From positions 1-25,063 of IMG/VR virus record IMGVR_UViG_3300021378_000154: a stretch of 25,063 nucleotides of DNA; one strand, given 5' to 3'. The notes below the pieces were generated by a model. It was not told where the DNA came from and did not search any database. It worked only from the letters and a program-made list of their open reading frames with translations. Position numbers and translations under genes: made by a program. Positions 1,836 to 4,177 of the stretch are shown here, in pieces. This DNA is from a virus. The first letter of the stretch is position 1; every line of letters begins with the position of its first letter.

Positions 1836-2035
1836 GCTACACCAAAGAAGAACGCGAAGAGATAGCGAAGAATATTCGCGAATACATGAAGCAACCCCAC
1901 AAGGAACAATTCGAAACGGTTAGCTACGGAGGGATGAAAGTCCTACACCGTAGACTCCCCCATATGAATTACTACGATCGCGACTGGTTGGAGACCATTG
2001 CAAGAGACGTAGAGGGTAGAATCTTTCACCCATGA
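1832..2035 (+). CDS. Small hypothetical protein
   Basis: This 67-residue, highly charged soluble protein begins MSYTKEEREEIAKNIREYMK (helical) and ends with a tyrosine/aspartate-rich segment (NYYDRDWLETIARDVEGRIF). No motif or membrane segment is present and I do not recognise the family. It is joined by ATGA overlaps to the small Cys-containing gene upstream and to the methyltransferase downstream, so it is almost certainly translated in the same operon. A role linked to regulating or assisting the methyltransferase is possible from position alone. Confidence 0.6.
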   Translation: MSYTKEEREEIAKNIREYMKQPHKEQFETVSYGGMKVLHRRLPHMNYYDRDWLETIARDVEGRIFHP

Positions 2036-2814
2036 CTCATGGGTCTCTTTTCTCAGGAATCGGAGGTTTTGACCTCGCGGCTGAATGGGCGGGATTCACA
2101 AACATTTTTAATTGCGAGTGGGAAGAATTCCCTCGCAAAGTCCTTAAACACCACTTTCCCAATGCAGAACAATATGAAGACATCAAAGACTTCAACGCGA
2201 CAGCTTACTCTGGAAGACTTGATATCCTCTCCGGAGGCTTCCCATGTCAAGACGCAAGCATTGCCAAACAACACGGAAAAGGACAAAAAGGACTTGAAGG
2301 CGACAGAACAGGGCTATGGACAGAAATGGTTCGCGCCATCAAAGAAATACAACCCAAATACGTTGTCGCCGAAAACGTTTCGAATATTCTCAGAACCAAC
2401 AATGGACGAGATTTCAGAACAATTCTCGGTAAATTGGATGGAATGGGGTACAATGCAGAATGGAGAGTTACACGAGCGAGCGAACTCGGTGCTTGCCACC
2501 ACCGTTCCCGGTGCTACTTGGTTGCTTACCCCAACAGCATCCGACTCAATGAGGGAGAATCTTTCTTCTCCAATGTTCTTCAAGAGATACCACAGAAGCG
2601 CCGGCTCTTTGCCAGAACTTCTGCATCGATTGGGGTTTCGTGGGAAACTGAACCCATTGTTTCCGGGTTGGATGATGGGCTTCCCAAAGAACTGGACGGT
2701 ATCACCTTTCCAAAGTGGAGAAGAGAATCAATCAAAGCATATGGAAACGCCATAGTCCCCCAAGTGGCTTATCGTATATTTGAAGCAATCCAAGAATATG
2801 AGAAACGCACGTAA
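2032..2814 (+). CDS. dcm: C5-cytosine DNA methyltransferase (Dcm-type)
   Basis: The enzyme transfers a methyl group from S-adenosylmethionine to carbon 5 of cytosine in a specific DNA site, probably shielding phage DNA from host restriction. The family motifs are visible in order: I (FSGIGGFD, residues 6-13), IV with the catalytic cysteine (GGFPCQ, C72), VI (AENV, E114), VIII (ACHHRSR, ~154-160; the usual form is APHxRxR, so Cys replaces Pro), and IX/X (GLDDGLP, then GNAIVPQ at ~238-244). At 260 residues it is compact, with a short target-recognition region, so the target site cannot be guessed. The start at 2032 is set by an ATGA overlap with the preceding gene. No restriction endonuclease partner is visible. 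A second long frame lies inside this gene (2039-2755). Confidence 0.93.
   Translation: MTHGSLFSGIGGFDLAAEWAGFTNIFNCEWEEFPRKVLKHHFPNAEQYEDIKDFNATAYSGRLDILSGGFPCQDASIAKQHGKGQKGLEGDRTGLWTEMVRAIKEIQPKYVVAENVSNILRTNNGRDFRTILGKLDGMGYNAEWRVTRASELGACHHRSRCYLVAYPNSIRLNEGESFFSNVLQEIPQKRRLFARTSASIGVSWETEPIVSGLDDGLPKELDGITFPKWRRESIKAYGNAIVPQVAYRIFEAIQEYEKRT
2039..2755 (+). CDS. Candidate overprinted frame inside dcm
   Basis: In the +1 frame relative to the methyltransferase, 238 codons are open from an ATG at 2039 to a TAG at 2753-2755. The product is not random-looking. It contains SSPEASHVKTQALP opposite methyltransferase motif IV, an NWMEWGTMQNGE segment, LLTPTASDS opposite motif VIII, and GKLNPLFPGWMMGFPKNWT opposite the DDGLP region. 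I recall many phage database proteins with the same pattern (S-P-x-x-S, TPTAxD, LNPxFVEWLMGFPxGWT), so either the frame is a real overlapping gene or it is a conserved by-product of the methyltransferase DNA sequence. No separate ribosome binding site is evident and its ATG sits 7 nt after the dcm ATG. Treat as a hypothesis. Confidence 0.25.
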   Translation: MGLFSQESEVLTSRLNGRDSQTFLIASGKNSLAKSLNTTFPMQNNMKTSKTSTRQLTLEDLISSPEASHVKTQALPNNTEKDKKDLKATEQGYGQKWFAPSKKYNPNTLSPKTFRIFSEPTMDEISEQFSVNWMEWGTMQNGELHERANSVLATTVPGATWLLTPTASDSMRENLSSPMFFKRYHRSAGSLPELLHRLGFRGKLNPLFPGWMMGFPKNWTVSPFQSGEENQSKHMETP

Positions 2815-3019
2815 AGCCCTCCTCCACGCAAAGAACTACCTCCTCATCACGGAGAACGCCGAAGTCGTCCGCTTGCATGTCGGACAAGATCCCGCAACTC
2901 TACTCCTAACCTTAGCCGTACACAATGCCGAATTCCTCCACACCCTCGAAGCCGTCATCGTTCAAGCTCATGAATCTCTCGGAGCTTCAGGAGAACCCGA
3001 ACAACCCTCGGATAATTAA
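2798..3019 (+). CDS. Small helical hypothetical protein
   Basis: This 73-residue protein starts MRNARKALLHAKNYLL and is mostly amphipathic helix, with a hydrophobic run near LLLTLAVHNAEFLHTLEAVI and a polar tail. I chose the ATG at 2798; a TTG at 2780 would add six residues. It overlaps the end of dcm and the start of the ParB-like gene, lying between two genes of the DNA-modification block. No family is recognised. The hydrophobic stretch contains His, Asn and Glu, so a membrane segment is unlikely. It may be a small partner of its neighbours, by position only. Confidence 0.55.
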   Translation: MRNARKALLHAKNYLLITENAEVVRLHVGQDPATLLLTLAVHNAEFLHTLEAVIVQAHESLGASGEPEQPSDN

Positions 3020-3551
3020 AGACGATAAATTCCAGAAGCTCGTCAAGAGTATAAAGGAATTCCCGGAGATGCTTGAAGCGCGTCCGATTGTCGTCAATCC
3101 GGAGAATATCGTTCTCGGTGGGAATATGCGCCTCAAGGCTTGCAAAGCCGCAGGACTCAAAGAAGCACCCGTCTACGTAGCCTCCTGGGAAGAGAGCAAG
3201 GCGAACGAATTTATCGTAAAGGATAACGTAGGATTCGGAGAATGGGATTGGGATATCCTCGCAAACGAATGGGATGCAACTCAACTCGATGAATGGGGTC
3301 TTGATGTATGGCAACCCGAAATTGACCCAGATCAACTCGGCGAGGAGTTCAGCCTTGCTGACGGCGATAAACCTCCGTTTCAATCGCTGACATTTACGCT
3401 TGCGGACGAGCAAGCAGAGTTCATTAAAAACGCCCTCGCAGACGCAAAGGCACTTGAGGAATTTAAATACATTGAAACAATGGGCAACGACAACAGCAAC
3501 GGCAACGCCCTGTATTTTTTAGTATCACAATGGGTAGAGCGAAGGATATAA
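2970..3551 (+). CDS. ParB/Srx-like domain protein
   Basis: The product (193 residues from this start) has an N-terminal ParB/sulfiredoxin-like nucleotide-binding domain: MNLSELQENPNNPR, then a helix (KFQKLVKSIKEFP), then IVVNPENIVLGGNMRLKACK with the GGNxRLxA signature. It is followed by a segment found in phage ParB-like proteins (DNVGFGEWDWDILANEWD, DEWGLDVW) and a C-terminal NSNGNAL box, so the gene looks complete. ParB-like phage proteins bind DNA or CTP/phosphosulfate-type ligands, and some act as nucleases or partner DNA-modification enzymes. The start is set by homology (MNLSEL); an in-frame ATG at 2925 would add 15 residues without conserved features. The 3' end overlaps the Mom-like gene by 22 nt, suggesting a joint role in DNA modification. 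Segregation is unlikely, as no ParA is seen in this window. Confidence 0.8.
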   Translation: MNLSELQENPNNPRIIKDDKFQKLVKSIKEFPEMLEARPIVVNPENIVLGGNMRLKACKAAGLKEAPVYVASWEESKANEFIVKDNVGFGEWDWDILANEWDATQLDEWGLDVWQPEIDPDQLGEEFSLADGDKPPFQSLTFTLADEQAEFIKNALADAKALEEFKYIETMGNDNSNGNALYFLVSQWVERRI

Positions 3552-4177
3552 TTGTCAAAGTCATTCCGTCTAAATTGGCGAATGAATTTGTAAAACGACA
3601 TCATTACTCCGGCAAGGTGGTAAACAACAGCGTGCTTCACTTTGGGGCTTTTCTTGACGGTAAATTGGGAGGAGTCATGCAGTACGGCAACCCTATCGAC
3701 AAACGAAACGTCCTTAATTTAGTAGAGACAAGCAACAAAGGTTTCAACTCCAAGTGGAACGAGATGCTTGAGTTAAACCGAATGGCTTTCTCGGAAATAT
3801 TACCAAAGAATAGCGAATCGCGGTGCATTGCCGTTAGCATTCGATTGATTAAAAAGAACGCGCCCCAAGTCAAGTGGATTTTGTCATTTGCAGACGGCAC
3901 GCAATGCGGAGACGGAACTATTTACAGGGCTTCAGGTTTTAAGCTGACAGCCATAAACAAGAACAATACGATTGTCAAGCTTCCAAACGGTCAAGTGATG
4001 GCAAAGCACGGCACAAGCAAAAAAAATTTTACTGGAGCAGTTAGGTTACCCGGGAATCAACTTCGATACATTTACTTGATTTCAAAAAATTCAAGTTTAA
4101 ATTGCGCAAACATTCCGTTCTCAAAAATCAAAGAAGCGGGAGCAGGAATGTATAAAGGAGAGAAAACAGGCGGTTAA
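3530..4177 (+). CDS. mom: Mom-like adenine DNA-modification protein
   Basis: This 215-residue protein resembles the Mom family, first known from phage Mu, which converts adenine in DNA to a carbamoylmethyl form that blocks many restriction enzymes. The fold is related to GNAT acyltransferases. Supporting blocks are FVKRHHYSGK near residue 20, a beta-rich HFGAFLDGKLGGVMQYG, ELNRMAFSEILPKNSESRCI near residue 80, VKWILSFADGTQCGDGTIYR near residue 113, and a terminal LRYIYLI strand. The gene is clearly richer in A+T than its neighbours: 20 G/C in 60 bases at 4081-4140 against 37 in 60 at 4441-4500 in the small terminase gene. That suggests recent acquisition. Its start overlaps the ParB-like gene and its stop lies inside the tRNA-like element. 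Family confidence is good; the exact chemistry is inferred. Confidence 0.75.
   Translation: MGRAKDIIVKVIPSKLANEFVKRHHYSGKVVNNSVLHFGAFLDGKLGGVMQYGNPIDKRNVLNLVETSNKGFNSKWNEMLELNRMAFSEILPKNSESRCIAVSIRLIKKNAPQVKWILSFADGTQCGDGTIYRASGFKLTAINKNNTIVKLPNGQVMAKHGTSKKNFTGAVRLPGNQLRYIYLISKNSSLNCANIPFSKIKEAGAGMYKGEKTGG

Follow-up and report, generated by a model that had tools for sequence, protein, structure and literature searches.

The window, i.e., the whole stretch of viral DNA analyzed here (25,063 nucleotides), contains a dcm gene in which two frames of the same strand are open (Table 1). The product of frame 0, hereafter alpha, matched the profiles PF00145 (4.5e-48) and PHROG 363 (1.7e-69), and its sequence revealed the motifs of a C5-cytosine DNA methyltransferase, namely I, IV (PCQ), VI (ENV), VIII (RxR) and X (GNxxxP). 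The +1 frame, whose product is hereafter called beta, was open at 2039-2755 over 238 codons, exactly as an earlier note on this DNA had described. The four motif blocks named in the note were all present, and they lay opposite the dcm features given there: SPxxS (motif IV), W-x-x-x-G-x-x-x-N/S-G-E, TPTAxD (motif VIII) and LNPxFxxWMMGFPxxWT (the DDGLP region). Among 91 codon-aligned loci of the family, the +1 stop was located at dcm codon 241 in 62%. Motif X was in frame 0 in every intact alpha frame where it was detected. Because a ParB-like gene and a Mom family gene (2925-4177) adjoin the methyltransferase, the locus looks like a DNA-modification cluster.

Table 1. Features of the dcm locus and its neighbors (window coordinates).
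Feature	Position	Strand	Remark
Alpha (predicted large subunit), dcm frame (frame 0): C5-cytosine methyltransferase large domain, motifs I-VIII and X, without motif IX	2032..2814	+	
Entire +1 open frame, 238 aa, ATG 7 nt past the dcm ATG	2039..2755	+	
Probable coding sequence of beta, 193 aa from ATG 2174; alternative start ATG 2162	2174..2755	+	
Alpha motif IV GGFPCQ, catalytic Cys; beta reading EASHVK, directly after beta SP	2233..2250	+	
Beta block LLTPTASD (family form LLPTPxASD)	2522..2545	+	T and P columns, z 15 and 36 against synonymous shuffles
Variable region (both frames); predicted target recognition domain position	2546..2647	+	dcm codons 172-203 poorly conserved
Beta motif IX, LNPLFPGWMMGFPKNW	2648..2695	+	L-N-P and M-M-G-F-P-W columns, z 11-79
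Alpha motif X GNAIVPQ; beta terminates here	2743..2763	+	
Neighbor: ParB-like N-terminal domain protein	2925..3551	+	PF02195, 1.2e-6
Neighbor: Mom family DNA-modification protein	3530..4177	+	PF25680, 6.2e-46; phrog_1384, 4.1e-46

A tblastn search against phage genomes revealed 53 records with a similar product, including Porphyromonas, Mycobacterium, Microbacterium, Bacteroides, Microcystis and Stenotrophomonas phages, and in all 12 loci inspected the match was the +1 frame of a dcm frame. The dcm frame was annotated in Porphyromonas phage032a and Microbacterium vB_MoxS-R1, and the +1 frame in Mycobacterium XFactor (gp67) and Stenotrophomonas SOVA965. Several GenBank proteins that appear to be standalone are thus the +1 frame of dcm, and they seem to be the standalone phage proteins mentioned in the earlier note. 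A further 265 loci were collected from IMG/VR and from GTDB genome contigs; some were the same contig fetched twice, and about 190 distinct second-frame products were left once near-copies had been removed. A dcm frame was present in 277 loci, of which about 190 are distinct, and 258 of the 277 contained the motif-IX block described below in the +1 frame; since similarity to the window or its family was the basis for collecting the loci, these counts describe this clade and not all cytosine methyltransferases. The proposal that a widespread, apparently standalone phage family is a second reading of cytosine methyltransferase genes was borne out by this result.

The most constrained block of the +1 frame, LNPxFVEWMMGFPxNWT, has the spacing of C5-methyltransferase motif IX (LTPRECARLMGYPDSF in locus L299), and it follows a variable stretch resembling a target recognition domain (TRD). 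When the alpha family profile was aligned with M.HhaI, the only residues matched were 14-179, which hold motifs I-VIII, and 297-319, which hold motif X; no match covered the TRD or motif IX. In 80 loci fetched by the dcm protein alone, motif IX was found in the +1 frame in 66 and in frame 0 in none, and the nine loci without a strict match that were printed in full all contained a variant in the +1 frame. The arrangement of a single-chain enzyme, with motif IX in frame 0, was found neither in the window nor in any of these 80 loci. Alpha lacks motif IX and beta has it, and this coupling is exclusive across the family sample. An unguided hhalign comparison of the beta profile with full-length canonical dcm also selected motif IX (E 0.0046, compared with 0.71 for the reversed control). 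For the main clade, this resemblance was short, comprising 16 residues with an hhalign probability under 10%, which is why the sister lineage described below matters.

Additionally, beta matched PHROG 1008 over residues 29-177 (2.3e-14). No Pfam or NCBIfam family was found for the +1 product, and a solved-structure profile search with beta revealed nothing relevant. AlphaFold2 models of beta alone, built from two alignments of 100 and 81 rows, showed a mean pLDDT of 58-59 and a pTM of 0.22-0.25, with no confident fold. Such a low-confidence model would be expected of a subunit that folds together with its partner, and it would also be compatible with disorder.

The sister lineage, represented by locus L292, provides a longer match. 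The L292 +1 product aligned to a canonical phage methyltransferase over residues 175-302, a segment that starts at the end of motif VIII and includes the TRD and motif IX up to its end, and it was 60% identical to another canonical methyltransferase over motif IX. In the canonical sequences that were matched, the match fell in the frame of their annotated genes. Frame 0 of L292 retained motifs I-VIII and X. The L292 product also matched positions 173-295 of PF00145, a weak match below threshold (E 0.08). A search of 369 genomes of the class and of IMG/VR revealed no second L292-like locus, so the link drawn through L292 comes from one genome.

Taken on the sequence evidence, we assign a probability of roughly 0.88 to the reading that the dcm locus of the window encodes a two-subunit C5-cytosine methyltransferase from one stretch of DNA, on the plan of M.EcoHK31I. 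The large subunit, alpha, would provide the SAM-binding and catalytic motifs I-VIII together with motif X. The small subunit, beta, most likely the 2174-2755 product, would be translated separately from its own internal ATG and would carry motif IX and all or part of the target-recognition region. Alpha and beta would then assemble into one enzyme that methylates cytosine at a putative target site, and the methylation would presumably shield the phage DNA from host restriction.

It is improbable that beta is a real overprinted but independent factor (anti-restriction, regulatory or inhibitory) and no subunit of the methyltransferase, although such a factor would also be selected in its own right, as beta is, and beta has no Pfam or NCBIfam match of its own. 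The earlier note had suggested an anti-restriction or regulatory partner; that suggestion was not supported, since beta has the methyltransferase motif IX that the dcm frame lacks, and a subunit of the same enzyme fits this finding far better. Alpha lacks a normal TRD as well as motif IX, and in the dcm-fetched set motif IX was found in the beta frame and never in alpha. The alignment of the L292 +1 product with a methyltransferase TRD and motif IX also argues against an independent factor, as does the presence of a dcm frame at all scanned beta loci except L248, which lies near a contig end.

With respect to how beta is made, 160 of 170 loci contained a usable in-frame ATG 8-26 codons upstream of dcm motif IV, compared with 45.9 +/- 5.7 in shuffles, and this enrichment points to separate initiation of beta. 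In the window, the beta start is likely to be ATG 2162 or ATG 2174. Across the 91 aligned loci, no +1 stop occurred between dcm codons 79 and 226, whereas before codon ~58 the +1 stops were about as frequent as in shuffles; position 2039 did not hold up as a conserved start for this reason. A Shine-Dalgarno test at the conserved beta ATG showed no signal. In L035 and L036, compared with L025, a frame change in a G-rich stretch past motif IV fuses the alpha N-terminus to the beta frame, and this change would reflect either phase variation or an assembly error. These natural fusions speak for programmed frameshifting, by which both frames would be joined into one alpha-beta chain and not expressed as two proteins. 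We nevertheless regard this arrangement as very improbable given the internal ATG in nearly all loci; moreover, a chain shifting into beta would lose motif X, because motif X stays in frame 0.

Beta is a selected, conserved protein. In shuffles that preserved the dcm protein, the frame at 2039-2755 stayed open in 0.87% of 20,000 permutations of dcm's own synonymous codons (P 0.0087) and in 0.035% when codons were resampled from the usage of the other genes of the window (P 0.00035). The chance of about 1 in 100,000 given by the earlier note was thus too strong, as it ignored codon use. We compared +1 profile scores in 23 diverse loci, with close relatives left out of the profiles, and found that in 23/23 loci the real score (z 6.4-11.3) exceeded every one of 300 permutations that left both the dcm protein and its codon use unchanged. 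The shuffled means were 45-137 bits versus totals of 116-240 bits, i.e., a large share of the score is forced by the dcm protein. The mean pairwise similarity of the +1 products was 0.78, compared with 0.03 in shuffles (91 codon-aligned loci). In the window's near relatives, changes that are silent in dcm and alter beta occurred at 0.275 per site inside beta, compared with 0.65 (upstream) and 0.64 (downstream); for changes silent in both frames, the rate was 0.84 per site. In particular, the motif IX block kept Gly as GGG, Asp as GAT and Val/Leu codons ending in TG across genomes of 32-63% GC. Both comparisons that the earlier note had proposed, i.e., of the +1 frame with codon-shuffled controls and of constraint at dcm synonymous sites, therefore came out as expected for the true overprinted gene that it had considered.

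Canonical dcm genes served as a control. With TIGR00675, we drew dcm genes from 143 genomes belonging to the same class as a Burkholderiaceae genome; 17 of these and two genes from phage contigs gave 19 canonical genes with motif IX in their own frame. The canonical genes showed a mean z of 0.36 and 15.1 +1 stops versus 15.9 in shuffles, in sharp contrast to 11 further overlap-type genes, which showed a mean z of 7.3 and 0.6 stops versus 4.3. Encoding a cytosine methyltransferase is thus not enough to produce the second-frame signal. The notion, also raised in the earlier note, that the +1 frame is open and similar among phages only through constraint by the dcm protein can be dismissed: much of the +1 score is indeed forced by dcm, and the window's +1 frame by itself stays open at P 0.0087 when dcm's own codons are permuted, but the synonymous permutations, the control genes, which are similarly constrained and show no signal, and the codons kept in the motif IX block despite the range of GC content have already refuted it. 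The methyltransferase gene of Solobacterium phage SMO_1P (L009, 1329-2357) had motif IX in frame 0 and yet 5 +1 stops versus 13 in shuffles (z 2.9). It is possibly a relic or a recombinant of the overlap type, and locus L291 resembles it.

In a tree of motifs I-VIII with 93 rows, the overlap-type genes all fell into one clade (SH-aLRT 100) with L292 as its sister, and a single state change separated motif IX in the +1 frame from motif IX in frame 0. The overlap clade included phages, Bacteroidota, Actinomycetota, Bacillota, Pseudomonadota, Cyanobacteriota, Planctomycetota and archaea. Enterobacterial phages formed a further branch, the second frame of which matched 192 phage records; in Salmonella phage epsilon15, the match was +1 to the annotated methyltransferase. 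In two bacterial classes, 13 of 369 genomes and 6 of 295 genomes contained a profile match. We also observed two overlap-type methyltransferases of different branches in one prophage of E. coli PT62 (L329, 440-1426 and 3398-4135), where only the dcm frames were annotated. In E. coli PCP07014 (L330, 3374-4135), both overlap-type frames were broken at approximately the same place, and the record lists a pseudogene with an internal stop.

We consider it quite probable that a single ancient overprinting gave rise to this dual-frame cytosine methyltransferase clade, which would extend over phages, at least six bacterial phyla and archaea. The same claim holds that the pair is among the most widespread same-strand nested gene pairs of prokaryotes, with half-enzymes that are missing or misnamed in annotations. 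We found no prior description of overlapping phage methyltransferase genes in the open-access literature, which misses most subscription journals. What appears to be new here is the scale, i.e., one clade across phages, six bacterial phyla and archaea.

To place the window pair, we compared it with known systems. M.EcoHK31I has motifs I-VIII and X on a large polypeptide and a small polypeptide with motif IX only (PMC3404938), and it has been called naturally split (PMC3439449). The same division of motifs was found at the window locus, which by its architecture would be a member of the M.EcoHK31I kind, a likeness drawn from the described motif plan of that enzyme (YGGCCR, E. coli). According to what Lee, Kam and Shaw reportedly described in 1995, the small M.EcoHK31I gene lies within the large one in a different frame, and its product is about 23 kDa; the small gene of the window is likewise nested in another frame, and the 193 residues predicted for beta would be near that size. 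There are differences as well. M.EcoHK31I belongs to a bacterial restriction-modification system, whereas the pair described here occurs mostly in phages and no restriction enzyme was noticed beside it. Furthermore, the TRD of M.EcoHK31I was predicted in the large chain in the literature, whereas the variable stretch here lies in both frames and the L292 TRD is in beta. A search for M.EcoHK31I through E. coli genomes revealed only prophage relatives.

M.AquI is a two-subunit C5 methyltransferase with a natural split of its catalytic and recognition parts (PMC3404938), which is similar to the window pair. In contrast, the small M.AquI subunit holds motifs X and IX and its variable region is divided, whereas here motif X is in alpha, apart from motif IX, and the beta frame lies within the alpha gene. 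In another group of IMG/VR phage contigs (L346-L351 and L355-L362; e.g., L347, 510-3408), we observed a C5-methyltransferase core gene that contains motifs I-VIII and no others. Two to five small ORFs follow it in tandem, often with a slight overlap, and all of them combine a variable region with motifs IX and X. This arrangement looks like a single catalytic subunit served by several interchangeable specificity subunits, in an M.AquI-like split.

M.HhaI and M.HaeIII share these motifs and their order along the DNA, but they are single chains with motif IX in frame, and the canonical genes of the control set had no signal in the +1 frame. PHROG 1008 ("DNA methyltransferase") corresponds to the beta frame, yet it is named as the methyltransferase itself, whereas the beta of the window lacks motifs I-VIII. 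The ShiLan insertion is a hidden HNH endonuclease in phage methylases (PMC11855218). It is similar in being a second reading frame within a phage methylase gene; however, it is an inserted homing element with an HNH nuclease and is neither a methyltransferase body nor a motif IX. No connection to the overlap type could be established for a Paracoccus phage methyltransferase whose m5C activity has been tested (PMC3925955).

In prokaryotes, long same-strand nested genes whose function is known are uncommon and difficult to demonstrate. The clade described here combines a second frame with an identifiable function, many sampled loci, canonical single-chain relatives as a clean negative control and a basal lineage showing the origin, and together these make the evolution of overprinting directly testable. 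Usually a single gene is annotated at such a locus, in some cases alpha and in others beta, so many "hypothetical proteins" and some "DNA methyltransferases" would each be one half of an enzyme. Recoding, codon-optimizing or deleting such a phage gene changes both subunits.
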